Positions 7,341 to 26,290 of a stretch of 64,000 nt of DNA are shown here, piece by piece. A program made the translations under genes and the position numbers. Every line of letters starts with the position of its first letter. The first letter of the stretch is position 1. Origin of the DNA: Gammaproteobacteria bacterium. GTDB lineage: Bacteria > Pseudomonadota > Gammaproteobacteria > Pseudomonadales > Azotimanducaceae. The stretch covers positions 1-64,000 of the forward strand of contig VYDB01000088.1 of assembly GCA_009843635.1 (NCBI GenBank). Reading direction: 5' to 3'. The notes below the pieces were generated by a model, which saw nothing but the letters and a program-made list of their open reading frames with translations, did not search any database and was not told the origin of the DNA.

Positions 7341-7753
7341 GACCTCACCACTGGCAGGCTCTGATTGCGCCACTCGGTCACCCCGCCCGTGAGCCGTACG
7401 ACGTTCTGAAATCCATGCTTGCGCAGCACCACGCCGGCGCTGCCCGAGTGCTGGCCCATCTTGCAGGCCACCACCACGGGCCGGTCCTTGTGCTTGTTGA
7501 GTTCATCCACGCGGCTGTCCAATGCCGAGAACGGTATGTTGACCGCATCGACGATATGGCCAGCGTCAAACTCCTTCTTGTCCCGCACGTCAAGCACCAG
7601 CGCCCCTTCGCGGTTCACCATGTCCACCAGTTGCTGCGCCGAAACCGAACGCCCGCCACGCCGCACTTCGTTGCGCACGAACAGCGCCAGCAGCACCACG
7701 AAGGCGCCGCACAAAAGCGGATGGTTGGCAATGAACTCGAAGACTTGGTCCAT
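7337..7753 (-). CDS. Membrane-anchored rhodanese-like protein (YibN type)
   Basis: Single-domain rhodanese tethered to the inner membrane. One N-terminal transmembrane helix (about residues 8-28, HPLLCGAFVVLLALFV) is followed by a rhodanese fold with VLDVRDKKEFDAGHI and an active-site loop CKMGQHSGSA whose cysteine could carry sulfane sulfur. ATG 7753 gives 138 residues, near the 143 of E. coli YibN. Its role is not established; in E. coli the neighbour genes are the same (secB, gpm, envC). It is the first gene of the minus-strand pair and has a consensus -10 box upstream. Confidence 0.92.
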   Translation of the reverse strand: MDQVFEFIANHPLLCGAFVVLLALFVRNEVRRGGRSVSAQQLVDMVNREGALVLDVRDKKEFDAGHIVDAVNIPFSALDSRVDELNKHKDRPVVVACKMGQHSGSAGVVLRKHGFQNVVRLTGGVTEWRNQSLPVVRS

Positions 7754-7791
7754 GGGAATTGGGATAGAGCCGGGGGATGGCAAACGGCGCG

Positions 7792-7797
7792 ATTATA
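7792..7797 (-). promoter_or_regulatory. Consensus -10 box of the rhodanese-secB unit
   Basis: On the minus strand the sequence reads TATAATCGCGCC: a perfect -10 hexamer followed by a GC-rich discriminator. Predicted start is near 7785, about 32 nt before the ATG at 7753. No good -35 is visible at the normal spacing. The same TATAATCGC block occurs at the hisB promoter and upstream of the small gene at 34519. Confidence 0.6.
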
Positions 7798-7845
7798 CAA
7801 GCAAGTTTCAACCGACGCCGCTCGCGGATATCATGCCGCCTGCCC

Positions 7846-10535: not shown

Positions 10536-11653
10536 TGCGCCCTCTAGTGCATTTCGGTGTTCTGGTCAGCATCGTGACTGGTGTGGCGCTCGGGATGGTC
10601 GCGTATCGCGCAGCGTCCGGCACCGGTCTCCTCGCAAACCGGCTGGTGGACGAAGCCATTCGCCAAATCAAGGCCAACTACGTCGAAGAGGTGGCCGACG
10701 AACAGCTCGCCAACGATGCGCTGCGCGGCATCTTGGGTGGACTGGACCGCCATTCCCGGTATCTCGACAAAGACGCCTTCGAGAGCCTGCAAGCGGATGC
10801 CGATGGTTGGTTCGGCGGCATCGGCGTCGAGCTGGCCTTGGCGGACGGCTATTTCACCATCGCTGCCACCCTTGATGATTCCCCCGCCACCCAGGCCGGA
10901 TTGCTGCCCGGCGATCGGATCACCTCGATCGACGGGACCTCGCTTAAAGGCAAGCGCTTGAAATGGGTCGTGAAAAGCCTGCGCGGACCGCCAAGCACGG
11001 AAGTGAACTTGCGGGTGAAGCGCGGCGGCGAGCGATTCGGCCTCGACCTCACCCGCGCCTTGATTGCCGCGCCCAGCGTCCGTTGGCGCTGGCTCGAGGC
11101 GGGCTACGCCTACGTCCGAATCGTCCGGTTCAACAAGCGGACCAACGGCGATTTTCAAGGCGCCCTAGCCACCTTGGCAGCGGAACGCCCAATTGCCGGC
11201 TTAGTCCTTGATGTGCGCGGCAACACCGGGGGAATCCTCCCTGCCTCGGTGGACATTGCGGGCGCCCTGCTCGACGGCGGCGTGGTCGCCACCATGCGCA
11301 GCCGTCCACCGACCCCCGCACAAGCCTACCGCGCCCCGCCCGGCGATGCGCTGAACGGCGCCCCCGTGGTGCTTTTGATCGACAGGAAGGCCGCTTCGGC
11401 CTCGGAAATCGTCGCCGGGGCGCTTAAGGACCATGGACGGGCCATCCTGCTCGGCGAGACCAGTTTCGGGAAGGGCACCGTGCAGTCCCTAGTGCCCCTA
11501 TCGGGCGCCCAAGGGCTCAAACTGACCACTGGCCACTACTTCACCCCAAGCGGCAACTCCATCCACGATGCGGGCATCGAACCCGATGTGGCGGCCAACC
11601 CCGCCGACACCGAAGCGCTGCTGGCACAGGCGCTTAAGTTGCTGAAACGCTAG
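10535..11653 (+). CDS. ctpA: C-terminal processing protease, S41 family
   Basis: Periplasmic serine protease of the Ctp/Tsp family that trims or degrades envelope proteins. An N-terminal membrane anchor or signal (about residues 4-22) is followed by a PDZ domain (about 90-170, GWFGGIGVEL and GDRITSIDG) and the S41 catalytic core with RGNTGG, the nucleophile serine in KAASASEIVAGAL and the general-base lysine in ETSFGKGTVQ. ATG 10535 overlaps the envC stop by one base; a GTG at 10532 is possible. The stop overlaps that of the convergent aminotransferase. The gpmI-envC-ctpA order is conserved in gammaproteobacteria and marks the left edge of the catabolic island. Confidence 0.95.
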   Translation: MRPLVHFGVLVSIVTGVALGMVAYRAASGTGLLANRLVDEAIRQIKANYVEEVADEQLANDALRGILGGLDRHSRYLDKDAFESLQADADGWFGGIGVELALADGYFTIAATLDDSPATQAGLLPGDRITSIDGTSLKGKRLKWVVKSLRGPPSTEVNLRVKRGGERFGLDLTRALIAAPSVRWRWLEAGYAYVRIVRFNKRTNGDFQGALATLAAERPIAGLVLDVRGNTGGILPASVDIAGALLDGGVVATMRSRPPTPAQAYRAPPGDALNGAPVVLLIDRKAASASEIVAGALKDHGRAILLGETSFGKGTVQSLVPLSGAQGLKLTTGHYFTPSGNSIHDAGIEPDVAANPADTEALLAQALKLLKR

Positions 11654-12969
11654 CCGACCTCAGCCAGCACTCCCGCCAAGCAATCGAACATGGCCTCCAA
11701 GTCCGAAGCCTGGGCGACAAACGGCGGTCCGAACTGCAGCGTATCGCCGCCCCAGCGAACATAGAAGCCCGCTGCCCACATTTTCAACCCCGCCTCGTAG
11801 GGCCTGACCAAGGGGTCGCCCTCCCGGGGCCGCAACTGCAGCGCCCCGGCCAGCCCGTAGTTGCGAATATCCACCACATGCGGCGCGCTCTTGAGTTCGT
11901 GCAGGCAGGTCTCGAAGCGAACCGCCAGCTTCCGCACCCGTTCGATAAGCCCTTCCGTGACCAGCAGATCGAGCGCCGCAAGCCCGGCTGCGCAGGCGAC
12001 CGGATGCGCTGAGTACGTGTAGCCGTGGGGCAATTCGATGGCATGTTGCGGTTTCGAGGTTTCCATGAAGGCGCCGTAGATCTTCTCGCTGGCGACGACC
12101 GCACCCATGGGGATGGTGCCGTTGGTCAGTTGCTTGGCAAGATTCAGCATATCCGGGACCACGCCGAACTCCTCAGCGCCTGTCATTGATCCCGTCCGCC
12201 CAAACCCGGTGATCACCTCATCAAAGATCAACAGAAGCTCATGGCGGTCGCATATCTCCCGTAGCCGCTGCAGGTAACCCGCGGGGGGCACCACTACGCC
12301 GCCAGACCCTGACATGGGCTCCACGATCACGGCAGCAATGTTCGAGGCGTCATGCAATGCCACGATCTCCTCCAACTGATCCGCAAGGTGGCTCCCGTAT
12401 TGCGGCATGCCCCGGCTGAAGGCGTTCTCCAGCAGCAGCGTGGCGGACAGGTGGTCGGCATCGAGCAACGGCCCGTACATCTGCCGGTTGGGGCCGATGC
12501 CGCCCAAGCTCGTGCCCCCAAAGTTGACGCCGTGATAGCCGCGAATCCGCCCGATCAGCTTGGTTTTGCTCGGGCGGCCAGCCTCGCGCCAGTAGGCCCG
12601 AGCGATCTTGAGCGCGGTGTCGGTGCATTCCGACCCCGAATTGGTGAAGAAGACGTGGGAAAGCCCATCGGGCATCAACTCGACGATCCGGTTGGCCAAC
12701 TCGAAGCTCAAGGCGTGGCCGAACTGGAAGGCGGGCGCGTAGTCCATGCGGCGCAGTTGGTTCGTCACCGCTTCGGTGATGCCTGGATGGCCGTGGCCAG
12801 CACCACAGCACCACAGTCCCGAAAGTCCGTCGAACACCTTGCGGCCATCCGGCGTGTGGTAGTGGCAGCCCTCGGCGCGTTTCACAAGCCGCGGATCCCG
12901 CTTGAATGCCCGGTTCGCGGTGTAGGGCATCCAATGGGCGTCGTAGAAAGCCGACTTTTGGTTGTTCAA
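11650..12969 (-). CDS. Class III omega-aminotransferase (beta-alanine:pyruvate type)
   Basis: PLP-dependent transaminase likely to move the amino group of an omega-amino acid such as beta-alanine to pyruvate, yielding malonate semialdehyde. Family signatures: HWMPYTANRAFKRDPR at the N-terminus, NSGSECTDTALKIA (PLP phosphate site), FDEVITGFGRTG and the Schiff-base Lys279 in NLAKQLTNG. No in-frame ATG exists before the conserved region; a TTG at 12969 has a strong AGGGAGG 7 nt upstream and is taken as the start (439 residues). It lies 41 bp after the LLM gene on the same strand and probably shares its promoter and TetR-type control. In the island it could use the beta-amino acid released by the N-carbamoyl amidase. 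Substrate is inferred. Confidence 0.9.
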   Translation of the reverse strand: MNNQKSAFYDAHWMPYTANRAFKRDPRLVKRAEGCHYHTPDGRKVFDGLSGLWCCGAGHGHPGITEAVTNQLRRMDYAPAFQFGHALSFELANRIVELMPDGLSHVFFTNSGSECTDTALKIARAYWREAGRPSKTKLIGRIRGYHGVNFGGTSLGGIGPNRQMYGPLLDADHLSATLLLENAFSRGMPQYGSHLADQLEEIVALHDASNIAAVIVEPMSGSGGVVVPPAGYLQRLREICDRHELLLIFDEVITGFGRTGSMTGAEEFGVVPDMLNLAKQLTNGTIPMGAVVASEKIYGAFMETSKPQHAIELPHGYTYSAHPVACAAGLAALDLLVTEGLIERVRKLAVRFETCLHELKSAPHVVDIRNYGLAGALQLRPREGDPLVRPYEAGLKMWAAGFYVRWGGDTLQFGPPFVAQASDLEAMFDCLAGVLAEVG

Positions 12970-13010: not shown

Positions 13011-14072
13011 TTATGCGTGGACAGCACTGGGCGCTGCGGTGTCCGAGCGCATGGCCTCCCGGCCACCGTCATCTCTCAGGGCGGGCAAGATGTGCTTTCC
13101 GTAAGTCTCCAAGGTCTGGTCCTGTGCATCGTGCATGAGATACATGGCGAACTGGGCCGCGCCAAGACCGGCCAATGCCCTGAGCTTGGCGATGTGGTCC
13201 TGCACTGCGCCCGAAATGCAGAAGCGATCAATGATCTCGTCCGGCACGAAGTCCGTTGAAGGGTTCCCCGCTCGTCCGTGGTGCGAGTAGTCGTAGGCGC
13301 CTCGTCCCTTGACGTAGTCCGTCAGCGCCTTGGGCACTTGGCCGGAATCCCCGCCGTAGCGATTGACGAGGTCGGCGACGTGGTTGCCGACCATGCCCCC
13401 GAACCACCGCAGTTGCTCCCGCTGATGGGCCAGATCATCACCGACATAGGCAGGCGCAGCCACGCAGGCGGCAACATCGCCCGCCTCGCGGCCCGCAGCG
13501 ACGGCGCCCGCACGGACCGCCGTCAAGGTCCACTCGAAAATCTGGGGGTCCGCCAACTGCAGAATGAAGCCGTCCGCGTTGCGCCCGATGCAGTCAAGCG
13601 CCCGAGGCCCATAACCCGCGCCCCACATCGGCAACTCCCAGCCTTGGTCGATCCACGGAAACGCGATGTCCCTGCCGTTGTGAACGACCGACTCCCCGGC
13701 GACCAGCCCTTTGACGATCCGCATCGCGTCCGTCATTTCCTGCAGGCTTCTCGGACTGCGGCCTATGTAGCGCAAGGCCGAATCGCCCCGGCCCATGCCA
13801 CATACCGTGCGCGGTCCGTACAGATCGTTGAGCGTGGCGAAGGTCGATGCGAGCACAGTCCAGTCCCGGGTGCCAGGGTTGGTGACCATCGGGCCAACCC
13901 GGATCCGCTCGGTCTCCGCAAGAATGCGACCAAGGATCACAAAGGGCTCCTGCCAGAGGACGGGGGAGTCGTAAACCCACACATGGGTGAAGCCGTGCGC
14001 TTCCGCCCGCTGCGCGAGTTCCACCACCCGGGTCGCGGGCGGGTCAGTTTGCAGAACCAATCCAAAGTCCAT
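13011..14072 (-). CDS. LLM-class flavin oxidoreductase (TIGR03842-like)
   Basis: Luciferase-like TIM-barrel enzyme that should use reduced flavin or F420. The 353-residue sequence starts MDFGLVLQTDPPATRVVELAQRAEAHGF, and has VGPMVTNPGTRDWT, GMGRGDSALRYIGR and WGAGYGPRAL, phrases of the family named F420-dependent TIGR03842, whose true cofactor in proteobacteria is unproven. It is upstream of the aminotransferase and beside a RutR-like regulator. RutA, the oxygenase that opens uracil, is also an LLM protein, so a ring-attacking role is an attractive guess. AAGGGGGG precedes ATG 14072. Promoter with a TTGACA -35 inside a TetR-type operator lies 150 bp upstream. Confidence 0.88.
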   Translation of the reverse strand: MDFGLVLQTDPPATRVVELAQRAEAHGFTHVWVYDSPVLWQEPFVILGRILAETERIRVGPMVTNPGTRDWTVLASTFATLNDLYGPRTVCGMGRGDSALRYIGRSPRSLQEMTDAMRIVKGLVAGESVVHNGRDIAFPWIDQGWELPMWGAGYGPRALDCIGRNADGFILQLADPQIFEWTLTAVRAGAVAAGREAGDVAACVAAPAYVGDDLAHQREQLRWFGGMVGNHVADLVNRYGGDSGQVPKALTDYVKGRGAYDYSHHGRAGNPSTDFVPDEIIDRFCISGAVQDHIAKLRALAGLGAAQFAMYLMHDAQDQTLETYGKHILPALRDDGGREAMRSDTAAPSAVHA

Positions 14073-14413
14073 ATCACGCCCCCCTTGGATGACCGTTGCG
14101 CTGCGCCGCTAATCACTAGCCCAGCGAACTTCCCGGCTGACGAACCAAGCTTTCGTCGGCACCGCTTGGGTGCTCGCCGCGCGAACCCGGCGGCTTCGCC
14201 GGGAGAGCATACAATAATGTTTGACGCTTATGTCAAAAAATTGTAGCTTGAACGATCTTGGAAAAACCCGAAACAGCGTGATCGCGCCAGCCGGGCGTTC
14301 CGGTTCCGGGCAGAACCCAGCGGCAGTTCGCGCAACAGCTCAAGGAGGCACGAAACAAGCTCATGCCGTTACCAAGGCGCCGACAATCGAGCCACGACCC
14401 GGCAGCCGGCCAT
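14073..14413. other. Noncoding control region between LLM gene and TetR gene
   Basis: This 341-bp stretch holds no convincing gene on either strand. From left to right it contains the leader of the LLM gene, a 7-bp hairpin CCCGGCG-GCTT-CGCCGGG (14186-14203) near the predicted transcript start, a minus-strand promoter, the operator at 14220-14237, and about 170 bp of featureless sequence following the TetR stop codon. Confidence 0.7.
14208..14237 (-). promoter_or_regulatory. Promoter with RutR-like palindromic operator, LLM-aminotransferase unit
   Basis: TTTGAC-GCTTAT-GTCAAA (14220-14237) is a perfect palindrome with 6-bp half-sites and 6-bp spacer. This is the geometry of the E. coli RutR box (TTGACCA-N2-TGGTCAA, that is TTGAC-N6-GTCAA). 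On the minus strand the right half supplies a consensus -35 TTGACA (14231-14236), followed after 17 bp by TGTATG (14208-14213) as -10, so a bound repressor would cover the promoter. The regulator gene at 14414-15031 is adjacent. A second such box lies at 19316-19331. Confidence 0.75.
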
Positions 14414-15031
14414 TCAATCGCCGAGTCCGCAGCCATTGAGGACGACTTGGGTAACCGTCGCCACGCCAGCTTCGAATTGCGCGGCGGTCAAGCGCTTGGT
14501 GCCGAGAATGCTCTTGATCTGCTGTTCGAAGTCGGCGTAGTACTGCGTCGCGCCCCACAGCAGGAAAAAGAAGTGGCGCGCATCCAGGCGATCCATTTTG
14601 CCCTCGTCCATCCAACGCTCTATGACCGCACACTTTTCCGCCGTCAGATCCCTAATCTGGTTGTTCTCCTCATCGGTCAACATGTCCGATCCCCGAATCA
14701 CCTCCATGGCGAAGACTTTCGAAGGCACCGGGTGTTTTCTCGAGTACTCGATCTTGACTCGGATGTAGTCGCGGATGGCCTCCCGAGGCTCCCGATCAGC
14801 AGCAATCTGCTCGAACGCCTTGACCCAGTCGGCTCGCAGCCCGGTCAGGATGCGCCGGTAGATGGCACGTTTCGAAGAAAAGTAATAGTAGAGATTGGGC
14901 CGCGGCAGCTTTGCCGCCCGAGCGATGTCGTCCATGCGCGTACCGTGAAAGCCCCGCTTGGCAACCAGCTTCTCCGTTGCCCGGATTATCTGCCGCTCCT
15001 TCCTGTCGCGCGCATTCATGGCACGGGCCAT
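14414..15031 (-). CDS. TetR-family regulator, RutR-like
   Basis: DNA-binding repressor likely to sense a pyrimidine-like ligand. The 205-residue protein has an N-terminal helix-turn-helix (ERQIIRATEKLVAKRGFHGTR, then LPRPNLYYYFSSKRAIYRRIL) and a C-terminal ligand domain that follows E. coli RutR step by step: IRDYIRVKIEYSRKHP, a VFAMEVIRG block, and HFFFLLWGATQYYADFEQQI. Start is the ATG at 15031 with AAGGAGG spaced 8 nt; a longer reading frame upstream is not coding. E. coli RutR represses uracil catabolism and is released by uracil. The TTGAC-N6-GTCAA boxes at 14220 and 19316 are the expected targets. Ligand is inferred. Confidence 0.9.
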   Translation of the reverse strand: MARAMNARDRKERQIIRATEKLVAKRGFHGTRMDDIARAAKLPRPNLYYYFSSKRAIYRRILTGLRADWVKAFEQIAADREPREAIRDYIRVKIEYSRKHPVPSKVFAMEVIRGSDMLTDEENNQIRDLTAEKCAVIERWMDEGKMDRLDARHFFFLLWGATQYYADFEQQIKSILGTKRLTAAQFEAGVATVTQVVLNGCGLGD

Positions 15032-15238
15032 GCGTTCAGCCTCCTTGTTCGGATTTGGACGATCTTGGCGGCGCCAGTGATCGACACCACGGCGGACTGC
15101 GGCCGCGGCCCAACCCCACCAAACCACCCAAGGGATTATAGGAGCCACTGCGGGACACAACCAGCAAGGAAACCGGGCCTGCCCCAGCCACCCAGCGAAA
15201 CGCAGCTCAATCAGACTGGATCGACAAGGACCCATTAG

Positions 15239-16102
15239 ATGGCCACACGCCTGCGCACCGCATTGCGAGAACTTCTGGTTGACTGGCAATCCGACCTCAA
15301 TCCCGAATGGCGGTCCGTCGTCAATGGCGTTGACCTCGCTTTCGACGCTGTGGACGCAACGCTGGAGTTGCATCCGTGGGAGCCGATTTTTCCTTCCCGC
15401 CGATATTTCACGCTTCCAGGGGAGCCTGACGGCGCCCACATGCTGCGGGCGTTCGACGACCTAGCGCCAAGTGCCGTCCGTTGCGTTGTCGTTGGTCAGG
15501 ATCCCTATCCCAACATCGCCTTTTCCACCGGACGCGCCTTCGAGACTGGGGAACACCGGCATTGGCGCGAACTCGGCAACATGCGCTCAGCCAGCATGCG
15601 CAGCCTGATCCAGAGTCTCTACGCCTTTCGATCGGGCCTTGCCTCCCACGCGGCGGACGTTGAGGGATGGTCGGCAACGCTCGACGCCATTGCCGCGCCA
15701 AGCAACGGATTCCAAGGGCCCACCGAGCTTGCCCAGCACTGGGTCGATCAAGGCGTGCTGCTATTGAATGCGAGCCTTACGTTGTCGCGATTCTCCGTGG
15801 ACGGCGATCCGCACCAGACCAGAGGTCACCTGCCGCTGTGGCGCCCGTTGATCGGACACATCCTGCGCCACTTTTGCTCGGAGCACACCGGCCAACCCGT
15901 GGCTTTACTGCTGTTCGGAGACGCGGCTCAAGCGGCAGCGCTGGCCAGTGGCGTCTGCGACCTATACACCATTCAGGATCACCCCGCGATTGTCACCTCG
16001 CCCCACCCCGCCGAGGGAACGCGGTATCTGGAACGACCGAACCCCTTCGAGCTCGGCAACCGAAAACTGGTGGCAATGGGCGCCGCGCCGATAAACTGGT
16101 AA
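15239..16102 (+). CDS. Uracil-DNA glycosylase superfamily protein
   Basis: Family-1-like uracil-DNA glycosylase of 287 residues. It has motif A VVVGQDPYPNIAFSTGRAF (the Ung water-activating GQDPYH block with Pro-Asn after the tyrosine where Ung has His), an LLLNASLTL strand equivalent to LLLNxxLTV, and a C-terminal SPHPAEG loop in place of HPSPLS. Ung proper is about 230 residues, so this is a divergent member. AAGGA spaced 8 nt precedes ATG 15239. It heads a plus-strand run with the GMC and NIPSNAP genes (16-bp gap), divergent from the TetR gene. Base excision repair is the default role; whether it belongs functionally to the pyrimidine island is unclear. Confidence 0.82.
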   Translation: MATRLRTALRELLVDWQSDLNPEWRSVVNGVDLAFDAVDATLELHPWEPIFPSRRYFTLPGEPDGAHMLRAFDDLAPSAVRCVVVGQDPYPNIAFSTGRAFETGEHRHWRELGNMRSASMRSLIQSLYAFRSGLASHAADVEGWSATLDAIAAPSNGFQGPTELAQHWVDQGVLLLNASLTLSRFSVDGDPHQTRGHLPLWRPLIGHILRHFCSEHTGQPVALLLFGDAAQAAALASGVCDLYTIQDHPAIVTSPHPAEGTRYLERPNPFELGNRKLVAMGAAPINW

Positions 16103-16118
16103 CCGCTGGAGGCAAACG

Positions 16119-17768
16119 ATGAAAGGAGGCGAATACGACTACATCGTGGTGGGCGCCGGATCGGCAGGCTGCGTGCTGGCCAACCGGCTGTCGGCCGAGC
16201 CCACTACACGGGTATTGCTCATCGAAGCCGGCGGACGGGACTCCAACACACTGTTCCGCCTGCCCATGCTCATGGGCCGCTTGATGCACTCGGGCATTTA
16301 CAACTGGCAGTTCCATACGGAGCCTGAGCCTCATCTGGACGGCCGAAAGGTTTTCTGGCCGCGCGGCAAGGTTCTCGGCGGAAGCTCCACAATCAACGGC
16401 ATGATCTACGTTCGCGGCAATCCGGCGGACTACGACGGCTGGGAGCAAATGGGACTGCCCGGTTGGTCCTATGAAAAGGTGCTGCCGCTGTTCAAACGCT
16501 CGGAAGCCCATGTTGACCGGGAAGACTCTTTCCACGGGCGCACAGGCGAGCTCACGGTGCGTCGGGCGCGCGGCGCAAACGCAATGTTCGACGCCTACAT
16601 GGAGGCTGGTCAACAGGCCGGGTATCCCTTCACCGATGACTTCAACGGCGCCAGCCAGGAAGGGTTCGGCCGCTACGACTTCACCATTCGACGGGGCTGG
16701 CGCTGCAGCGCGGCCACAGCCTTCCTCGCTCCGGCCACCAAGCGGCCCAACTTAACGATCGCCACGCGAGCACTCGCACACCGCGTGCTGGTTGAGGGAG
16801 GGCGAGCGGTCGGCGTCGAATACCGCAGGGGGAGGAACGTCGTCAACGCCAAGGCGGTTCGGGAGGTCATCCTAGCCGCCGGAGTCGTCGGGTCGCCGCA
16901 TCTCCTGATGCTTTCAGGAATCGGCGATGCCGAGCATCTCCAAGAGCATGGCATTGCCACGGTCCATCATCTGCCGGGCGTTGGCCGAAACGTGCAGGAC
17001 CATGTTGACTGCTGCTTGGTGCATGAATGCCGGGAGCCGGTTTCGCTGCGCGAGAACCTGCGGGTGGATCGGATGACGCTTGGCGTGCTTAGGGCAGCGA
17101 TGTTCGGAACGGGTTTCGTAACGACGTTCCCTTATGAATCGGGGTCGTTCATCCGCTCGTCCAAGGATCTTGAAGTGCCTGACATCCAGACCCACTTCAT
17201 GCCGGCGACGGAGGCAACCGCCAACCTGCACTGGTCCGTGCCCGCGCTTGGCCGGAAGCGGAACGTGGCGGACGAGCACGGCACGACCATAAGGATCGGG
17301 CCAGTGGTTCCCAAGAGCCGAGGGCGCATCGCCTTGCGCTCAGGCGATCCCGAGGATTCACCGCGCATTCACGCCAACTATCTCGACGACCGGCGAGACG
17401 TTGACACCGCCGTCGCCGGCGTGCAGCTCATGCGCGAGGTGATGGCGAAACCCGCGTTTGCGGCAACGATCGGCCGGGAGTTGGAACCCGGTCCGGAAAA
17501 CATGACGGACGCGCAGGTCGCGAAGTGGCTGGTCGATGCGGCCATGACCACGCTGCACCCAGTGGGTTCCTGCAAGATGGGCGTGGACAGCGAGGCGGTT
17601 GTCGATGCGGAACTGCGGGTCCGCGGCATCAAGGCGCTACGGGTGGCCGACGCCTCCATCATGCCCGTCATAACCCGCGGGAACACGAATGCGCCCACCA
17701 TCATGATCGCCGAAAAGGCGAGCGACCTCATCCTCAATCCAAGCGCCACCGGGAGTGCAGCCTCATGA
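16119..17768 (+). CDS. GMC-family flavoprotein oxidoreductase (choline dehydrogenase-like)
   Basis: FAD-dependent alcohol dehydrogenase or oxidase of unknown substrate. The 549 residues start with the dinucleotide fold YDYIVVGAGSAGCVLANRLS, carry GMC signature 1 (GKVLGGSSTINGMIYVRG) and signature 2 (GVVGSPHLLMLSGIG), and end with the catalytic HPVGSCKMG and NTNAPTIMIAEKA. No signal peptide, so cytoplasmic or membrane associated. GGAGG precedes ATG 16119. It is coupled to the following NIPSNAP gene by a four-base overlap. In this setting it may oxidise a side-chain hydroxyl of the island substrate; that is inference. Confidence 0.93.
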   Translation: MKGGEYDYIVVGAGSAGCVLANRLSAEPTTRVLLIEAGGRDSNTLFRLPMLMGRLMHSGIYNWQFHTEPEPHLDGRKVFWPRGKVLGGSSTINGMIYVRGNPADYDGWEQMGLPGWSYEKVLPLFKRSEAHVDREDSFHGRTGELTVRRARGANAMFDAYMEAGQQAGYPFTDDFNGASQEGFGRYDFTIRRGWRCSAATAFLAPATKRPNLTIATRALAHRVLVEGGRAVGVEYRRGRNVVNAKAVREVILAAGVVGSPHLLMLSGIGDAEHLQEHGIATVHHLPGVGRNVQDHVDCCLVHECREPVSLRENLRVDRMTLGVLRAAMFGTGFVTTFPYESGSFIRSSKDLEVPDIQTHFMPATEATANLHWSVPALGRKRNVADEHGTTIRIGPVVPKSRGRIALRSGDPEDSPRIHANYLDDRRDVDTAVAGVQLMREVMAKPAFAATIGRELEPGPENMTDAQVAKWLVDAAMTTLHPVGSCKMGVDSEAVVDAELRVRGIKALRVADASIMPVITRGNTNAPTIMIAEKASDLILNPSATGSAAS

Positions 17769-18085
17769 TTATCGATCATCGCACCTACTCGTTCCGTCCG
17801 GGCACAGTCCAAAAGTGGCTAGAAAAGTACGAAAAGGACGGTTTGCCCATCCAGCAAAAATACCTTGGCAAATTCATCGGCATATTCACCACGGAGGTGG
17901 GCAATCTGCACCAAGTGGTGTTCATGTGGGCATACGAGAGCTTGGCAGACCGTGAGCGGCGGCGAGCCAACATGGAATCTGATCCCGACTGGGAGACCTT
18001 TATCAGCGAGATATGGGAACTCGACGCCATAGTCGAGCAGAAAATCAAGATGTTGCGGCCGGCGTCCTACTCCCCGCTCCGCTGA
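17765..18085 (+). CDS. NIPSNAP-family protein
   Basis: Small (106 residues) dimeric alpha-beta barrel protein of the NIPSNAP family, starting MIIDHRTYSFRPGTVQKWLEKYEKDGLP and containing GIFTTEVGNLHQVVFMWAYESLADRERRRA, the typical strand-helix pattern. Members often accompany degradation enzymes in bacteria, possibly as small monooxygenase-like or carrier proteins, but no activity is established. Its ATG overlaps the GMC stop (ATGA), so the two proteins are made together and may act on the same compound. Its 3-prime end faces the MFS gene. Confidence 0.88.
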   Translation: MIIDHRTYSFRPGTVQKWLEKYEKDGLPIQQKYLGKFIGIFTTEVGNLHQVVFMWAYESLADRERRRANMESDPDWETFISEIWELDAIVEQKIKMLRPASYSPLR

Positions 18086-18107
18086 TGCTCCTGCTGCATG
18101 CGGGCGC

Positions 18108-19253
18108 TCACTCCGAACGCCGGGACACTAGTCGCTGGCGAACCGCCATCCCGAGAACAACGGCGTATGCGGCGGCGGTGACAAGCGAACCCGAGAAGTA
18201 GAGCAGCAGGAAGCCTCCGCGCTCCAATAGTTCGCCGCCAGCCGCAGGACCGAGCATGCTCCCGAAGGCGAGGCTGGCAGTGACGAGGGACGTCGCGCGA
18301 CCGCTGTCGTCAAGGCCAGCGATGGCGGAAATCAGGTAAGGCAGGGCAAAAAGCCAAGAGAAGAAGAAGAGGTTGACGGCGCCAGCATAGAACCAGAACT
18401 GCCCACCAAACGCGAACAGTGCCATCGCCACCAAGTAAAGCGATGCGGCGCCCGCCAATGGCATCGCCTTGCCGAGCCGGTCCGACAGCGCGCCCGCCAA
18501 GAAGGATCCGACTCCACCAAAGAGCACCGCCACTGACAACACGCCACCAATGGCGCTGGCATCGAATTCCGCCCTTGCTCCCGCACGTTCAACAAAGGAC
18601 CAAACGGATGCCTGCCCCACGGTGAACAGGAACAGCGCGCCAAGCGCGAGGCCAGCGGACGCCGGCATTGCGAAATGGCCGCGGTCCATCGAGGCGTTGC
18701 CCGTTTCCAAGGCGTGCTTAGCGAGGAAATGCGTGCAAGCTGATACCGAAACCAGCACGATTGCCAATGCGCCAAGGATGCCGGAAAAACCGAAAGCCGG
18801 GTAGATCAGTGTCGGAAGCAGCGCCAGAAGCAGCGCGCCGAGTGCGACTTCACCGCCAAGCTTGACGCCCAAGGCTCGGGTGGCGTCCGGATGTTCGGCC
18901 GCCAACAGGAAAGACATCGTGTAAAGGCCCCCAAGAAGCAAGCCAACGGCCAACAGCACCCCCAAGACAGCGACGTAGGACGCTATCATTCCTCCCGCTG
19001 CGAGCAGCACTGCCGCCGACAGAAACAGCAGGCGACCGAGCGCCCTCTTGCCAAGCCGATGAAGCCAAAGCGGCGCGGAGACCGACGAGACGCCGAAACC
19101 CGCCAAATAGGTGGTTGCCAGCCAGCCCGCTGCTCCATCGCTCAGCCCGAAAGCCTCTGCCGCCCTGCCGACAAAGAACGGCAGAATGTTGAAGATCATT
19201 GCCGCCGCGGCACCCGTGCCCACGATCGGGACAAGCTGTGAACGCTTAGTCAT
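18108..19253 (-). CDS. MFS transporter
   Basis: Inner-membrane permease of the major facilitator superfamily, about 381 residues with around twelve hydrophobic segments (for example MIFNILPFFVGRAAEAFG, WLATTYLAGFGVSSVSAP, VLLAVGLLLGGLYTMSFLLAA). Substrate unknown; an export or uptake role for the island compound or a product is likely. The ATG at 19253 is preferred since the segment before it (to 19331) overlaps the operator; no strong ribosome site is visible. It is divergent from the TonB receptor, and both share the control region with the RutR-like box. Confidence 0.85.
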   Translation of the reverse strand: MTKRSQLVPIVGTGAAAAMIFNILPFFVGRAAEAFGLSDGAAGWLATTYLAGFGVSSVSAPLWLHRLGKRALGRLLFLSAAVLLAAGGMIASYVAVLGVLLAVGLLLGGLYTMSFLLAAEHPDATRALGVKLGGEVALGALLLALLPTLIYPAFGFSGILGALAIVLVSVSACTHFLAKHALETGNASMDRGHFAMPASAGLALGALFLFTVGQASVWSFVERAGARAEFDASAIGGVLSVAVLFGGVGSFLAGALSDRLGKAMPLAGAASLYLVAMALFAFGGQFWFYAGAVNLFFFSWLFALPYLISAIAGLDDSGRATSLVTASLAFGSMLGPAAGGELLERGGFLLLYFSGSLVTAAAYAVVLGMAVRQRLVSRRSE

Positions 19254-19288
19254 TGAGGAGATGCCATGTCGAGCGAGAGTGTAACTGA

Positions 19289-19332
19289 TTTGACGATAAA
19301 GTTTGACTATATAGATTGACATAAATGTCAAA
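19289..19332. promoter_or_regulatory. RutR-like operator with phased TTGAC repeats, MFS / TonB-receptor gap
   Basis: TTGAC-ATAAAT-GTCAA (19316-19331) has the same palindromic form as the box at 14220-14237. In addition, TTGAC occurs three times in direct orientation at 19290, 19303 and 19316, a regular 13-bp step. For the receptor strand the last copy forms a consensus -35 TTGACA (19316-19321), with TTAGAA (19338-19343) as a weak -10; for the MFS strand TATAGT (19306-19311) is a candidate -10. Binding of the adjacent RutR-like regulator is inferred. Confidence 0.7.
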
Positions 19333-19391
19333 TCCAGTTAGAAGTGATGCTGTCGGCCTTTCAGGCCTCGGACACCTTAGGGGAAACTCAA

Positions 19392-21692
19392 ATGATCATG
19401 GCAGAACGAGGTCCAAGTCCCTTACTGACATTGGCGAAAGTTGGTGCGGTCCGTAAACGGCTTGCGTTGCTCGCAGGCTTTCTTTTCCTGGGTTTGCTTC
19501 TGCTTCCCGCCATCTCGACCCAAGCTCAAGCACAGGGCGAGCCGGATGCGGAATTGGCGACCATTGAGGAAGTGATCGTCACGGCGCGCAAGCGACAGGA
19601 GTCGCTGCAGGAGACGCCCATCTCCATCACCGCCTTCTCGGAGGCGGACCTCGAGCAGGCCAACATGATCGACCTACGCGACATCGGCAAGTTCACGCCC
19701 GGCATGTCGTTTACCTCCTACGGCATGGGCAGCGCAGAGGCGGGGGCCATTTTCCTGCGCGGCATCGGCCAATCGGACCACATGGTGACCACTGACCCTG
19801 GTGTGGGCTTGTACATCGACGGCGTTTACATGGGCCGCAATCAGGGCGCCGCCTTGGATTTGCTTGATCTTGAGCGGGTGGAGGTGCTGCGCGGCCCCCA
19901 AGGCACCCTGTTTGGCAAAAACACCATCGGCGGCGCGGTCAACGTGGTCAGCCGCAAGCCGAGCGGTGAGCCTGGGGGGCACGTTGGGGCCACCTTTGGC
20001 GAGGATGGGCGCATCAATCTTGAAGCTTCGGCTGAATTCGGTTTGAGCGATGGCCTAGCGTTTCGTGCGGGCATTCTCAGCCGCAATCGGGACGGCGTCG
20101 GCGAGCAGGTGTTTACCGGCGATGAGCTCGGCGACGAGGACAGCTTGAGCGGACGGGCGCAATTGTATTGGAGCGGGGCGAATTCGGAACTGTCCGTGGT
20201 ACTGGACGCCGGCAAGGCGCGTCAAGGGGCGGTGCCGCACAGCTTCTATGAATTCGCCGATTGGATGGTGGCCTTCTTTGGTGCGGCACCCTGCTTCACC
20301 AGCGCCGGATCAGGCCAGTATGCGCCGTGCGCCAGCGGCGCGGATGCGGATCCGTTTGACAGCTACTCCCTTGATGACCTCGACACCGAGCAGGACTTGT
20401 TCGGCGTCTCCGCCACCTGGCAGTGGGATCTATCCGAAACCCTGACCCTGAAGTCGATCACCGCCTATCGGGACATGGAGTACGTGGGCAACCTGGAGTT
20501 CGACGGCGCACCCCAGGTCGTCGTCCACTACTTGGAGACCGGGGCTTCTGATCAATTCTCCCAAGAGATTCAACTATTGGGGGAAAACGAGGCGGGCACG
20601 GTCAATTGGATCGCGGGCCTCTACTACTTCACGGAGGACGGCCACAACCTGCAGAATGACAATCAATTCGGCGCCCTGGATCAGCGGCGTTCGCAAGTGG
20701 AGACCCAGAGCTACGCCGCCTTCGGCCAAGTCACCGTCGATCTGAGCGAGAGTTTCAGTTTGACGGCTGGGCTGCGGTACACCGACGAGGAGAAGGACTA
20801 CGACATCTATTATCAGTCGCTGGACGCCACTGGTGCGCCCGCCGTCGATGACGGCGGACAGTTGGTGTACAGAATCCCACCCAGCACACTCGGCGACTCA
20901 TGGGACGCCGTTTCGGGCACTGTCAACGGCAAGTTCCAAGTCTCTGATGAGCTCATGCTTTACGCAACGTACTCCCGGGGATTCCGCAGCGGCGGCTTCG
21001 CCGCTCGGCCTGCCGCTCCGGCCAGCGTCGGCGCTTATGACCCCGAGTACGTGGACATGTTTGAGGTGGGCCTCAAGGCACAGGCTTTTGATGATCGGAT
21101 GCGGCTCAATGTTTCGGCTTACACCAGCGATTACGAGGACTACCAAGCCCAGGTGAACCGAGTGGGCAACGCCTTCGACACCCGCGTGCTGAACGCCGCC
21201 GAAGCGGAAATCGATGGCTTTGAAGTGGAGTTGACCGCCCTGTTCTCGCCTTGGTTTCGAGTAGTGGCCACTTTGGGCTACACCGACGCGGAGATCACCA
21301 AAGTGGACCTCGATCCCTCCTTGGAGGCGAATTTCGCCAAGGGTTCGCAGCTGCCCTACGTCAGCAAGGTCACCTACAGCATTTCGCCCCAGGCCATGTG
21401 GCCCTTGGCGAACGGCGCCAGCCTCCTGCTTCGAGCCGACTACGCTTATCGGGACGACTTTTACGGCCAGATCGCCAACTCGCCGTTTGAAAAGGAGGAT
21501 GGCTACGGCCTGCTGAACGCCCGCATCGAGTTCTCAAGCCCCGGCGAACGCTGGCGCCTCGCACTCTACGGCATCAATCTGGCCGACAAGAAGTACACTC
21601 GGGTGCGCAACTACTACCCTGGATTCCTCGGCTTCGCCCTGTGGAACACGGATCGCCGGGAGATCGGGGTGACAGCGCGATACGAATTCTAA
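19392..21692 (+). CDS. TonB-dependent outer-membrane receptor
   Basis: Outer-membrane beta-barrel that imports a scarce solute with energy from TonB. The 766-residue protein has a long signal peptide (RKRLALLAGFLFLGLLLLP, cleavage after AQA), the TonB box/plug start IEEVIVTARKRQESLQETPISITAF, plug phrases GIGQSDHMVTTDPGVGLYIDGVYMGR and RVEVLRGPQGTLFGKNTIGGAVNV (split here), and a terminal strand ending RYEF with C-terminal Phe. ATG 19392 follows AGGGGA; an earlier in-frame start at 19344 is less likely. No N-terminal signalling domain, so it is not a FecA-type transducer. Its operator and neighbours suggest it brings in the substrate of the catabolic island rather than a siderophore. Confidence 0.93.
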   Translation: MIMAERGPSPLLTLAKVGAVRKRLALLAGFLFLGLLLLPAISTQAQAQGEPDAELATIEEVIVTARKRQESLQETPISITAFSEADLEQANMIDLRDIGKFTPGMSFTSYGMGSAEAGAIFLRGIGQSDHMVTTDPGVGLYIDGVYMGRNQGAALDLLDLERVEVLRGPQGTLFGKNTIGGAVNVVSRKPSGEPGGHVGATFGEDGRINLEASAEFGLSDGLAFRAGILSRNRDGVGEQVFTGDELGDEDSLSGRAQLYWSGANSELSVVLDAGKARQGAVPHSFYEFADWMVAFFGAAPCFTSAGSGQYAPCASGADADPFDSYSLDDLDTEQDLFGVSATWQWDLSETLTLKSITAYRDMEYVGNLEFDGAPQVVVHYLETGASDQFSQEIQLLGENEAGTVNWIAGLYYFTEDGHNLQNDNQFGALDQRRSQVETQSYAAFGQVTVDLSESFSLTAGLRYTDEEKDYDIYYQSLDATGAPAVDDGGQLVYRIPPSTLGDSWDAVSGTVNGKFQVSDELMLYATYSRGFRSGGFAARPAAPASVGAYDPEYVDMFEVGLKAQAFDDRMRLNVSAYTSDYEDYQAQVNRVGNAFDTRVLNAAEAEIDGFEVELTALFSPWFRVVATLGYTDAEITKVDLDPSLEANFAKGSQLPYVSKVTYSISPQAMWPLANGASLLLRADYAYRDDFYGQIANSPFEKEDGYGLLNARIEFSSPGERWRLALYGINLADKKYTRVRNYYPGFLGFALWNTDRREIGVTARYEF

Positions 21693-21787: not shown

Positions 21788-23065
21788 ATGATGAAACCGA
21801 ATAGGGTCCACGTTCTCGCCACTTTAGTTTTCGTAAGTCAGTTTGCGTTTCAATGGCAAGCCGTCTGGGCCAAGGACGTAACGTACACTCTCCCCTACGA
21901 GGCTGCCCTCGTCTATCCGGCGGAGAACTGGTTGCCCGCCCCTTACCAAAAGTACTACGAAGGCATGACCACTTCGGATGTGGTGAAGCTATTCACAACA
22001 GACTCCCTGAACCGAGACGGCATCAAGTTCGATTCACTAGAGGTCGAATTTGACCAAGATAACAACAGCTACAACGTGACAATCGTGACGGATGACTCAA
22101 ATGCATCGTTTTATCCGTTTGCGCATCGTGTGTTTGTTGGCAACTACACGGCCGCGTTAAACGGTGTCAATAAGTGCAAGGCCAACGACGGTTGTTGGAA
22201 CAAGAACAACACTAGGCCAGATGAACCTTGGGCTTTCTTTCCACAGTTTGGGTTACCAATGGTCATGCAAAAGTCCGTACTATTGCTTAACTATCCGCCT
22301 TCAACCGCCCTCACGGAAAAGGACTACTTGAACACTTTTACAATGAATCGGTGGACGAGGGTGCTGACCGCTGTGGGGATTGACGATCCAACTCTCTACG
22401 AGACCATTGTCGATATTCGCCCCATCGCGGCGCCCGGAAGCAACACCTCGCAGAATCTGCCCGATGCGCAGGCGTACTTCAACGATCCGTCCGGTCACAC
22501 CGGCGGCTACTACATAAACCCACAACTAAAACAGATGCTTGATCCACAGTCTACTTCGACCAGCATGACACTTCCTCTTGTCGTGCTCGGGACGCCCGCG
22601 CGAGAAGAGTGGAACAACATCACGGGCGTCGGCAAAGACATATTGAAGACCGGAACGGCGACAATTCCCGGTGCTAGCAAACCGACGCCGTTTATTCTTG
22701 GAAACCATCCGGATGTAACTACCTATCAGTGCTGCTCTGCATCAAGTAGTTCGGAGTGCAAGGACTCCCACAACTTAATCCCAGACGAGGAAATTGACGT
22801 TCAAATAGCCTGCTGGGCTCAAGCCATGTCGGAGAATCCGGGAAAAGATCCCGAAACAGTCCTATCCGACTGCCACGCTAGGTGGGTGACGAACAGATCG
22901 AAAAACGCAGACGATGATCGGACCTTTTGTGCCCTAGCCAGAATCGATAGCAATGAGTGTTTCGGAAAGGACATTACTTGGGCGACAGCGGTGAAATACT
23001 GCGAAAGCCACAACAACAACCCTTGCGCTACAAGCGCTTGTCCAACCAATAGTTCGCTCGATTAG
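21788..23065 (+). CDS. Uncharacterised secreted protein, low GC
   Basis: Not recognised. The 425-residue product begins with a clear signal peptide (MMKPNRVHVLATLVFVSQFAF, cleavage after VWA) and the mature part has no membrane segment. It is rich in Asn, Asp, Ser, Thr and Tyr and has about 14 cysteines, many in the last third (YQCCSASSSSECKDS, then a Cys-rich tail), which suggests disulfide bonds and export to the periplasm or surface. Base composition is visibly lower in GC than both flanks, and codon use differs (many AAT, ACA, TTT), a sign of separate origin. It sits between the TonB receptor and the NCS1 permease, so a binding or processing role for the same substrate is possible but unproven. 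Confidence 0.75.
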   Translation: MMKPNRVHVLATLVFVSQFAFQWQAVWAKDVTYTLPYEAALVYPAENWLPAPYQKYYEGMTTSDVVKLFTTDSLNRDGIKFDSLEVEFDQDNNSYNVTIVTDDSNASFYPFAHRVFVGNYTAALNGVNKCKANDGCWNKNNTRPDEPWAFFPQFGLPMVMQKSVLLLNYPPSTALTEKDYLNTFTMNRWTRVLTAVGIDDPTLYETIVDIRPIAAPGSNTSQNLPDAQAYFNDPSGHTGGYYINPQLKQMLDPQSTSTSMTLPLVVLGTPAREEWNNITGVGKDILKTGTATIPGASKPTPFILGNHPDVTTYQCCSASSSSECKDSHNLIPDEEIDVQIACWAQAMSENPGKDPETVLSDCHARWVTNRSKNADDDRTFCALARIDSNECFGKDITWATAVKYCESHNNNPCATSACPTNSSLD

Positions 23066-23181: not shown

Positions 23182-24915
23182 ATGATTCAGGGCTTGCGGA
23201 CACCTTCGGCCGGGATCGAACACTCACCGCTTTATGCTGTGGATCTCGCTCCGGTGCCGGAAATCCAACGTACATGGAACACTTGGAACTTGGCCGCCGT
23301 ATGGGTCGGCATGGCCACAAGCATACCCACGTACATACTGGCCAGCTACATGATCAAGGACGGGCTGAATTGGTTGGAGGCGCTCGCCATCATTCTCCTT
23401 GCCAACCTGATCGTCACCGTGCCAATGACGCTGAATGGACATGCGGGCGTCAAGTATCGGGTGCCGTTCGCGGTTCTGGGCCGCGCTCCTTTCGGGACGG
23501 TTGGGGTCCATGTCCCGGCGCTCGTGAGAGCGCTGGTGGCCTGCGGTTGGTTCGGTGTGCAAACCTGGATCGGCGGACTGGCCATCTACGTGATCGCCTG
23601 CACCTTGTCCGCCGAACCAGTCGCCAGCGGCCTCACCACCGGCAAATTCATCGCGTTCGGCTGTTCATGGGCGCTCACAATGTACTTCGTCTGGAGCGGC
23701 ACTGAATCAATTCGAATCCTAGAGACGCTTGCCGCGCCCATCCTGATTGGTGTCGGCGTACTTCTGGTGTTTTGGGGCGCCCATCAGGGCGGTGGATTCG
23801 CGCAAGTTTTGGACCAAAGCGCCCAACTCGAAAGGCCGACCGCCCACTATCGCGCCGACGGCGGAGTGTCGATTTCCCCGCTGCAAGGGCTGGAAGGCAA
23901 ATGGAAGGCTGACAGCTACCGAATCGCCATTCGCTCCGAATTGAATGGAAGCGAGTGGCACCCCGCAGCACCCGGCGCTCTGAACATTTCACCGTCCGAG
24001 GTGTTGAAACTGCGCGAAGGCAGTGACTCGACCGGCGCTCAAGGTGAATTGGTGGCGCAATTCCGGCGCGGAGAGTCGGTCTCAACGCCGGTTTTGATTT
24101 CCGCCGCACCGGCTTCAACGTCCCAATTCGCCACGTGGCTGTTCTGGATCACGGCCATGGTGGGTTTTTGGGCAACCATGTCGATCAGCATTGCCGACAT
24201 CACACGCTTCGGCCAAAGCCAACGCGCCCAGGTCATCGGGCAGTTTCTGGGCCTCCCCACCACGATGCTTCTCTACAGCTTCGTGAGTGTGTTCGTCACC
24301 TGCGCTGCCCTGATCGGTTTTGAGGACGTTTTGGCGGCTGAGGACGCGCCTTGGGATCCCGTCAATCTGGTCGCCCGGTTCGAAAACCCCGCTGTGGTGG
24401 TAGCCACGCAACTCCTGCTCTTCACTGCGACGCTCACAACCAATATCGCGGCCAACGTCATCGCACCCGCCAATGCATTTGCCAATCTTTGGCCGAGCGC
24501 CATCAACTTCAGGCGCGGCGGATTGATCGCCGGATTGATTGGCGTCATGATCGCGCCTTGGCTGCTCTTTGATCGCATCAGCGAACTGCTGGTGTTCGTA
24601 AGCGGTTTGCTGGGGCCCGTGCTCGGCGTGATGCTTGCCGACTACTACACGGTCAGGCGCACCCGGATATCGCTGCGGGGTCTGTTTGATCCCCAGGGCC
24701 CTTACCGGTATCGACGCGGCGTCAACCCGGTGGCCATGACCGCCTTGGCCGCCGGAGTCGCGACCGCCCTGTCAGGGTACTTTGTGGACTGGCTGCAGTG
24801 GCTGTACACAGCGTCCTGGTTCTCAGGCTTTCTGGTGTCATTTATCTTCTATATCGTGCTGTCGAAGAATGGCGCCAAAGAGAACGGAGAGACTCATGTC
24901 CTTATTGATACGTAA
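23182..24915 (+). CDS. NCS1-family nucleobase/hydantoin symporter with large inserted domain
   Basis: Inner-membrane secondary transporter of the nucleobase:cation symporter-1 family (allantoin, cytosine, hydantoin permeases). Recognisable blocks: TWNTWNLAAVWVGMATSIPTY, GVKYRVPFAVLGRAPFG, WFGVQTWIGG, and after the insert FWATMSISIADITRFG and TTNIAANVIAPANAFANL. At 577 residues it is longer than the usual 450-500 because a hydrophilic stretch of about 100 residues (roughly 205-312) lies between TM5 and TM6, where family members have a short loop. The insert has a soluble beta-rich look. It heads the operon with the hydantoinase, amidase and dehydrogenase genes; its last 20 bases overlap the hydantoinase start. 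Confidence 0.92.
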   Translation: MIQGLRTPSAGIEHSPLYAVDLAPVPEIQRTWNTWNLAAVWVGMATSIPTYILASYMIKDGLNWLEALAIILLANLIVTVPMTLNGHAGVKYRVPFAVLGRAPFGTVGVHVPALVRALVACGWFGVQTWIGGLAIYVIACTLSAEPVASGLTTGKFIAFGCSWALTMYFVWSGTESIRILETLAAPILIGVGVLLVFWGAHQGGGFAQVLDQSAQLERPTAHYRADGGVSISPLQGLEGKWKADSYRIAIRSELNGSEWHPAAPGALNISPSEVLKLREGSDSTGAQGELVAQFRRGESVSTPVLISAAPASTSQFATWLFWITAMVGFWATMSISIADITRFGQSQRAQVIGQFLGLPTTMLLYSFVSVFVTCAALIGFEDVLAAEDAPWDPVNLVARFENPAVVVATQLLLFTATLTTNIAANVIAPANAFANLWPSAINFRRGGLIAGLIGVMIAPWLLFDRISELLVFVSGLLGPVLGVMLADYYTVRRTRISLRGLFDPQGPYRYRRGVNPVAMTALAAGVATALSGYFVDWLQWLYTASWFSGFLVSFIFYIVLSKNGAKENGETHVLIDT

Positions 24916-26290
24916 CGGTCGCGTCGTCACCGCAAGCGACGACTACAGGGCTGACATCTATGTCGAAGACGACAAGGTCTCCCTTATCGGAAACAGCCTC
25001 GACCTGCAGGCCGATGAAGTCATCGACGCCTCCGGAAAGCTGGTAATCCCCGGTGGCGTCGATCCGCACACCCACATGGACATGCCCTTCGGCGGCACGA
25101 CTAGCTCCGACGACTTTGAGTCCGGCACCCGGGCCGCCGCATTCGGCGGAACCACGACCATCATCGACTTCGCCATCCAAATCAAAGGCAACTCAACTCT
25201 GGAGGCTCTGGAGACTTGGCACGCAAAGGCTGAGGGCAAGGCGTCCATCGACTATGGCTTCCACATGATCGTTACCGACATGGAAGACAAGAGGCTGTGG
25301 GAAATGAGACGCCTGGCCGACGAGGGCGTCACCTCCTACAAAATGTTCATGGCATACCCCGGAGTGCTCTATGTCGATGACGGCACCCTGTTCCGCGCCA
25401 TGCGCAAAGCCGGGGATGACGGGACCTTGGTCTGCATGCATGCCGAGAACGGCATCGTCATCGACGAGATCGTGAAACTGGCGCTCAAGGAGGGCAAGAC
25501 CTCACCGAAGTATCATGCCCTGACTCGACCGACGCGGATGGAGGCCGAGGGCGTGCATCGCTCAATCGCCATCGCGGAGGTGGCCGGGGTGCCGGTCTAT
25601 ATCGTCCACTTGAGCAGCGCCGATGCGCTCGAACAGGTCAACCTTGCGCGCAAGCGCGGCGCCCTCGTCTTCGCAGAGACCTGTCCCCAATACCTGTTCT
25701 TGGACATCGACTACTACGACCGCGAAGGATTCGAGGGCGCGAAGTACGTCATGACGCCAGCGCTGCGTGAGCGCTGGAACCAGGACGAACTGTGGCGGGG
25801 GCTGAAATTCGGCGACCTCCAAAGCATCTCCACCGACCACTGTCCATTCTGCTTCAAGGATCAGAAAACACTGGGAATCGACGACTTCAGCAAGATTCCG
25901 AACGGAGCGCCGGGCGTGGAGAACCGCCTGAGCCTGGTGTACAACGGCGGCGTCGCCGCCGGTCGAATATCAGTGAATCGATTCGTCGAACTCACTTCAA
26001 CGGCAGCCGCGAAGCTATTCGGGCTGTTTCCCAAAAAGGGCACCGTGGCCGTCGGCAGCGATGCCGACATCGTCATCTTCGATCCCGAGCGCCGCGAAAC
26101 CATCAGCGTTGACAATCCCTGCACCCATCACATGCGCGTTGACTACAACGCCTACGAAGGGATCGAAACCCAGGGGTTCAGCGAAACGGTCATCAGCCGA
26201 GGCAAGGTGATCGTCTCCAACAATGAGTGGCACGGCAGCTCCGGCGCGGGCCAATTTGTCAAGCGCGGGCTGTTCAGCGGCGCGAACTGA
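24896..26290 (+). CDS. Dihydropyrimidinase / hydantoinase
   Basis: Zinc amidohydrolase that opens dihydropyrimidine or hydantoin rings to N-carbamoyl amino acids in the cytoplasm. The 464-residue length and motifs match: metal ligands His58 and His60 in GGVDPHTHMDM, the lysine to be carboxylated (Lys149 in SYKMFMAYPG), His182 in MHAENG, His238 in VYIVHLSSADA, Asp314 in ISTDHCPF. The ATG at 24896 has GGAGA upstream and lies within the end of the permease gene, so uptake and ring opening are translationally linked. Whether it prefers dihydrouracil/dihydrothymine or a 5-substituted hydantoin cannot be read from the sequence. Confidence 0.94.
   Translation: MSLLIRNGRVVTASDDYRADIYVEDDKVSLIGNSLDLQADEVIDASGKLVIPGGVDPHTHMDMPFGGTTSSDDFESGTRAAAFGGTTTIIDFAIQIKGNSTLEALETWHAKAEGKASIDYGFHMIVTDMEDKRLWEMRRLADEGVTSYKMFMAYPGVLYVDDGTLFRAMRKAGDDGTLVCMHAENGIVIDEIVKLALKEGKTSPKYHALTRPTRMEAEGVHRSIAIAEVAGVPVYIVHLSSADALEQVNLARKRGALVFAETCPQYLFLDIDYYDREGFEGAKYVMTPALRERWNQDELWRGLKFGDLQSISTDHCPFCFKDQKTLGIDDFSKIPNGAPGVENRLSLVYNGGVAAGRISVNRFVELTSTAAAKLFGLFPKKGTVAVGSDADIVIFDPERRETISVDNPCTHHMRVDYNAYEGIETQGFSETVISRGKVIVSNNEWHGSSGAGQFVKRGLFSGAN

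Follow-up and report, generated by a model that had tools for sequence, protein, structure and literature searches.

What might two short palindromes, one on either side of a gene for a TetR-family regulator, be doing in the genome of a marine member of the Azotimanducaceae (Gammaproteobacteria; Pseudomonadales)? The palindromes lie in the first 64,000 nucleotides of contig VYDB01000088.1 (assembly GCA_009843635.1), hereafter the window, and both boxes reported by the initial annotation are present as exact matches. O1, TTTGACGCTTATGTCAAA (TTTGAC-GCTTAT-GTCAAA), occupies 14220..14237 upstream of genes for an LLM-class oxidoreductase and an aminotransferase, themselves on the minus strand, and O2, TTGACATAAATGTCAA, occupies 19316..19331 between the divergent genes for an MFS transporter and a TonB-dependent receptor. 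Judged from sequence, both boxes are very probably landing sites of the uracil-sensing, RutR-like repressor encoded between them. The wider explanation, in which this repressor acts on both boxes, is released by a pyrimidine and controls a reductive uracil pathway that would run through the LLM protein and F420H2, seems to us likely.

The regulator (14414..15031, minus strand; the exact start codon is uncertain) matches PF00440 (TetR_N, 53.9 bits) and PF08362 (TetR_C_3, 150.7 bits), and its three best PDB matches are all RutR. Its scores of 176.6 bits against TIGR03613 (cut-off 368) and 152.8 bits against NF011584 (cut-off 230) do not reach those of the curated RutR equivalogs, which places it in a RutR-like subfamily and not with RutR itself. 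The residues around uracil in Escherichia coli RutR are W77, Y97, W167, Q171 and Q179 (PMC10891134), and all five are kept in the window protein, as W70, Y90, W160, Q164 and Q172; together with the domains and the PDB matches they bear out the annotation's view that the gene between the boxes encodes a RutR relative. Orthologues with 63-91% identity occur in metagenome-assembled genomes of sponge-type (the sponge origin being read from isolate names) and other Gammaproteobacteria/Pseudomonadales, and orthologues with 44-45% identity in three of Rhodobacteraceae. The gammaproteobacterial orthologues that we compared also keep the uracil-site residues, and the three Rhodobacteraceae proteins have leucine at the Q179 position.

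The decisive test of the boxes is position-specific conservation across loci, for which 300 bp upstream of the genes in 16 non-redundant orthologous loci were scanned for TTGACA-N4-TGTCAA with no more than two mismatches. Sites were found upstream of the receptor gene in 10 of 12 loci, of the LLM gene in seven of eight, of the MFS gene in four of five, and of a uracil-DNA-glycosylase (UDG)-like gene in five of 16 (L071-L075, where they are exact), compared with none in 60 control upstream regions (GMC, aminotransferase, NCS1, dihydropyrimidinase, AMID, aldehyde dehydrogenase, NIPSNAP and PreA together). In L065 and L068-L070 the receptor gene is preceded by a tandem of two or three sites, and exact sites precede the UDG-like gene in three Rhodobacteraceae loci where the regulator is 44% identical. 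The UDG-like gene of the window has no upstream site, unlike those of L071-L075. No good site precedes the regulator gene in the window or in most loci, and autoregulation was dropped for that reason.

The E. coli RutR box has the consensus TTGACCA-N2-TGGTCAA, and the annotation had given the window boxes the same geometry. This is correct for the outer TTGAC-N6-GTCAA and fails at the inner base: in a symmetric matrix of 27 sites TGAC is invariant and is followed by A (90%) or G, with C in no site. The family operator is TTGACA-N4-TGTCAA, a box of RutR geometry in which an inner A replaces the C of the E. coli RutR box. Regulators at loci with TTGACA-type sites all have PRPN in the recognition helix, with arginine at the K52 position, and those at loci with TTGACCA- or TTTACCA-type sites have lysine. 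K52 of E. coli RutR has been proposed to contact guanine (PMC10891134). The K52-to-R change that accompanies the C-to-A change in the operator is a correlation between sequences and a candidate specificity pair.

How informative is the motif on its own? Allowing one mismatch to TTGAC-N6-GTCAA, the window contains eight matches where 1.2 are expected, a number reached in none of 100 shuffles, and O1 and O2 are its only exact matches. The genome-wide scan that the annotation had proposed was run on the window's genome (G000) and gave an excess of about twice chance, with 10 exact sites compared with five for the reversed control. Because an excess of this size makes the loose motif weak proof, the count was dropped as the main test, and it is placement that is informative. 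The open reading frames around the other eight exact sites place six of them inside coding sequence and two just past gene ends, so that only the two in the window lie directly upstream of genes. Only 0.018 such sites would be expected within 8 kb of the regulator, and the probability of at least two is about 1.6e-4. A third exact TTGACA-N4-TGTCAA in this genome (L007:1501-1516; G000:C95:141627-141642) lies about 300 bp 5' of a gene for a predicted secreted or outer-membrane protein, just past a sensor-kinase-like open reading frame, and an identical copy of its 16-mer occurs once in G007 (C54:14696).

The half-sites themselves appear to be promoter elements. The predicted LLM promoter (14206..14236, minus strand) has its -35 TTGACA (14236-14231) inside O1 and its -10 TATGCT (14211-14206) after a 19 bp spacer, and the TGTATGCT element (gTGTATGCT) stands at a fixed distance at the LLM promoters of the window and of four other orthologous loci. 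The annotation's proposal that the first box supplies the -35 of the LLM/aminotransferase promoter is supported, and the overlap is conserved across genera. The predicted receptor promoter (19316..19344, plus strand) has its -35 TTGACA (19316-19321) inside O2, a 17 bp spacer and the -10 TAGAAG (19339-19344). In all 11 promoters compared (10 of receptor genes and one of a UDG-like gene) the left half-site is TTGACA and a hexamer starting with TA follows exactly 17 bp on, with a mean match to TATAAT of 3.8 of six at this spacing compared with 0.7-2.6 at others. With the half-site serving as the -35 element, the operators would overlap the -35 and the spacer, the layout of simple repression, which is likely here. 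A generic promoter scan did not pick up the conserved promoters; its single promoter-like match is what chance would give.

Which genes would such a repressor control? The receptor gene (19392..21692; Pfam Plug and beta-barrel) is the first of the O2 cluster, and those that follow are all on the same, plus strand: a gene for a protein lacking a Pfam match (21788..23065), an NCS1-family nucleobase transporter (23182..24915; TIGR00800, 301.6 bits, below the cut-off of 353), a dihydropyrimidinase/D-hydantoinase (24899..26290; TIGR02033, 624 bits, cut-off 393), a CN-hydrolase predicted from PF00795 and gene order in relatives to be a beta-ureidopropionase (26318..27184), and an aldehyde dehydrogenase (27234..28685; PF00171, 583 bits), the predicted malonate-semialdehyde dehydrogenase. 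Across the orthologous loci no site of their own was found within 300 bp 5' of the NCS1 gene (0/10) or the dihydropyrimidinase gene (0/8), which is consistent with read-through, and co-transcription, from the receptor promoter. On the O1 side, the LLM protein (13011..14072, minus strand; TIGR03842, 523.2 bits, cut-off 295.45) and an AptA-type omega-aminotransferase (11650..12969, minus strand; NF052567, 683 bits, cut-off 500), a predicted beta-alanine transaminase, are probably encoded in one operon. The MFS transporter gene (18108..19253, minus strand; PF07690) diverges from the receptor gene across O2. The clusters that carry the conserved boxes include dihydropyrimidinase genes and, among the relatives, PreTA genes, and control of pyrimidine catabolism by the regulator is predicted. 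The annotation's link between a TonB receptor and a pyrimidine-type repressor is sustained across genera by the conserved receptor sites, and its description of a small regulon was too narrow, the predicted set adding the transporter and the dihydropyrimidinase, ureidopropionase and aldehyde dehydrogenase genes to the receptor, the LLM protein and the aminotransferase.

A few observations concern individual genes of these clusters. The protein encoded at 21788..23065 has a 60% identical relative in G007, whose gene lies between those of PreA and aldehyde dehydrogenase. In G001, a gene-sized insertion (L048:5160-6725) parts the operator from the receptor gene, and an open reading frame that shares its start recurs at L048:18054, which suggests a mobile element. 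In L064 the LLM gene (7107-8180) is followed by a second copy of 44 residues of its product (9050-9181).

The mechanism that we propose is as follows. A ligand-free repressor dimer would bind TTGACA-N4-TGTCAA over the -35 of the receptor and LLM/aminotransferase promoters and exclude RNA polymerase from both. Uracil, or a relative such as thymine or dihydrouracil, would occupy the RutR-type pocket and release the repressor. The TonB receptor and the NCS1 transporter would then import the substrate, the LLM protein would reduce uracil to dihydrouracil with F420H2, replacing dihydropyrimidine dehydrogenase, and dihydropyrimidinase, ureidopropionase, beta-alanine aminotransferase and aldehyde dehydrogenase would act in turn.

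Why should an LLM protein take the first step? Some enzyme must reduce uracil if the pathway is reductive, and no match to PreA, the dihydropyrimidine dehydrogenase, over its cut-off was found in the window's genome. The LLM protein is probably this missing first enzyme, with a tie to F420, a point that the annotation did not see. Among 392 genomes of the order Pseudomonadales scored for matches over the cut-offs, 17 have the LLM protein (TIGR03842), 27 have PreA and 41 have dihydropyrimidinase, and none has both LLM and PreA (hypergeometric P 7e-7, shared ancestry ignored). The 41 dihydropyrimidinase genomes divide into 16 with LLM only, 19 with PreA only, none with both and six with neither. 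Of the orthologous loci, four (L065 of G007, and L068-L070) have PreA inside the cluster and no LLM gene, with PreT recognized by Pfam in L068 and by similarity in G007; loci with an LLM gene at the operator have no PreA within the available locus DNA. The two alternate even within a genus: at the window locus in genus g1, G007 has PreA (and PreT) whereas G000, G001 and G006 have LLM, and a swap is also seen within g124. These within-genus swaps, together with the F420 link, are stronger points than the P value of the overlap. RutA was also considered as the identity of the LLM protein and ruled out, none of seven genomes tested having a RutA match over the 498-bit cut-off.

The link to F420, a rare cofactor, is one of gene content, position and fold. 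CofD was found in 102 of the 392 genomes, among them all 17 with LLM and none of the 27 with PreA (LLM with CofD, Fisher P 4e-11 uncorrected for phylogeny), and in all 12 LLM genomes outside the window's family it lies 3.1-3.4 kb from the LLM gene. The window's genome has CofD over its cut-off, so that by gene content the host is predicted to make F420. In L143 and L140, the two examined in detail, the genes for CofG, CofH, CofD, CofC, CofE, the NADPH-dependent F420 reductase NpdG and the LLM protein lie in a single run, each scoring over its curated cut-off, with a RutR-like gene nearby; L143 also has genes for a TonB receptor, a dihydropyrimidinase, a hydantoinase/carbamoylase-family amidase and an NCS1 protein, and TTGACCA-type or near-match sites were found by scanning these loci. 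The closest solved structures to the LLM protein, by sequence and by the fold of a confident model (pLDDT 87.6), are those of Mer, the F420-dependent methylenetetrahydromethanopterin reductase, and the fold matches include Mer-F420 complexes. Identity over the fold is only about 24%, and a different substrate would be expected. The LLM protein is thus a candidate F420H2-dependent uracil reductase.

Beside the RutR-like gene lies a module (15239-18085; L073:5371-9424 in another locus) that includes the NIPSNAP gene in most loci. In the window it comprises a divergent family-1 uracil-DNA-glycosylase homologue (15239..16102, plus strand) that retains the GQDPYP, LLLN and HPA motifs and is linked to the regulator in 16 of 16 orthologous loci, a GMC oxidoreductase (16119..17768, plus strand; PF00732/PF05199) and a NIPSNAP-domain protein (17765..18085, plus strand; PF07978). 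A separate true Ung (303 bits) is encoded in the window's genome. In Rhodobacteraceae the module has its own operator and adjoins a PnrA/BMP-type ABC transporter, which suggests a pyrimidine-nucleoside role.

Several observations weigh against the explanation as a whole, and they bear differently on its rivals. The genome-wide frequency of the loose motif, only about twice chance, is what might be expected if the boxes had arisen by chance or served a different regulator of the TetR family, and no site was found within 300 bp 5' of the receptor gene in L067, where a gene-sized insertion intervenes, or in L072. The sites are nevertheless conserved in position across genera and a class boundary, stand in tandem copies and co-vary with the recognition helix, and a search of the window's genome found no second RutR-like gene; we regard this rival as very improbable. 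It is more conceivable, if still doubtful, that the regulator senses, and the pathway serves, a cyclic amide other than uracil, such as hydantoin, allantoin or a modified pyrimidine: TIGR02033 covers D-hydantoinases too, models of allantoin permease match the NCS1 protein as well, and plain uracil catabolism would have no use for the UDG-like/GMC/NIPSNAP module. All five residues of the RutR uracil pocket are kept, however, and PreA, the enzyme with which the LLM protein alternates, acts on uracil and thymine.

The remaining points against concern the LLM protein. Collapsed to genera, its exclusion of PreA has a P of about 0.08 (g124 counted as both) and is not significant alone; G015 has LLM and no dihydropyrimidinase over the cut-off; G007 has CofD together with PreA, so that F420 alone does not dictate the choice of LLM; and the LLM proteins of the window's family are only about 40% identical to those of other families, so that function could differ between them. 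The boxes and the regulon could then be as described while the LLM protein does something else, for example pyrimidine or hydantoin oxidation or an auxiliary detoxification, with uracil reduced by an unrecognized enzyme or dihydropyrimidines imported directly. The functional diversity of the LLM family, with this divergence between clades, and the six dihydropyrimidinase genomes with neither LLM nor PreA are compatible with that view, as is the failure to obtain in vitro activity for the mureidomycin oxidoreductase (PMC10714638). This protein and its napsamycin counterpart (SSGG-03002 and NpsU) belong to antibiotic biosynthesis in Streptomyces, where their substrate is an antibiotic. Against another role stand the lack of any overlap between LLM and PreA, the complete co-occurrence with CofD, the position of its gene among those for F420 biosynthesis and F420 reductase, the F420-dependent Mer as the nearest structure, and the lack of an over-cut-off match to RutA, the oxidative LLM, in the seven genomes tested. 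We consider another role for the LLM protein unlikely, and retain the F420H2-dependent reduction of uracil as the preferred reading.

The proposed regulon shares with that of E. coli RutR (rutAG, carAB) a repressor with TetR_N and TetR_C_3 domains and the uracil-pocket residues, a palindrome of about 16 bp (TTGAC-N6-GTCAA) and a predicted connection to pyrimidine catabolism. Unlike E. coli RutR, the window regulator scores below the equivalog cut-off and has R for K52, its operator has an inner A for C, and its predicted set comprises a TonB receptor, an NCS1 transporter and, in place of the RutA pathway, a reductive one. In the main text of a study of predicted proteobacterial RutR regulons (PMC5343134), RutR orthologues control pyrimidine degradation through motifs with taxon-specific substitutions; that text names no RutR-linked TonB receptor and does not mention F420. 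The dihydropyrimidinase, ureidopropionase and beta-alanine transaminase steps are those of the PreTA/PydA reductive pathway, but in the LLM genomes an F420-type oxidoreductase would replace the first enzyme. In the literature that we searched, coverage of which is incomplete, no F420-dependent route in pyrimidine catabolism was found. In Chloroflexota, the purine intermediate yanthine has been proposed to be reduced by an F420 enzyme of the luciferase family (PMC12507026).

What began as a pair of palindromes has become a proposed regulon that spans genera, has a defined operator and offers a candidate K52-to-R/C-to-A specificity change that can be tested; it would connect a TonB receptor with the uptake of pyrimidines. 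Its most valuable consequence may be the LLM/F420 hypothesis, which is drawn from comparative genomics. Why Proteobacteria make F420 was listed as unanswered in a 2021 review (PMC8498797). On balance we favour the view that in many marine Gammaproteobacteria an F420H2-dependent LLM protein replaces dihydropyrimidine dehydrogenase, that RutR-like repressors control both this enzyme and TonB-dependent uptake, and, since several lineages have the whole F420 biosynthesis operon in the same cluster, that pyrimidine catabolism may be the main reason for these bacteria to make F420. This would give F420 a physiological role in Gammaproteobacteria.

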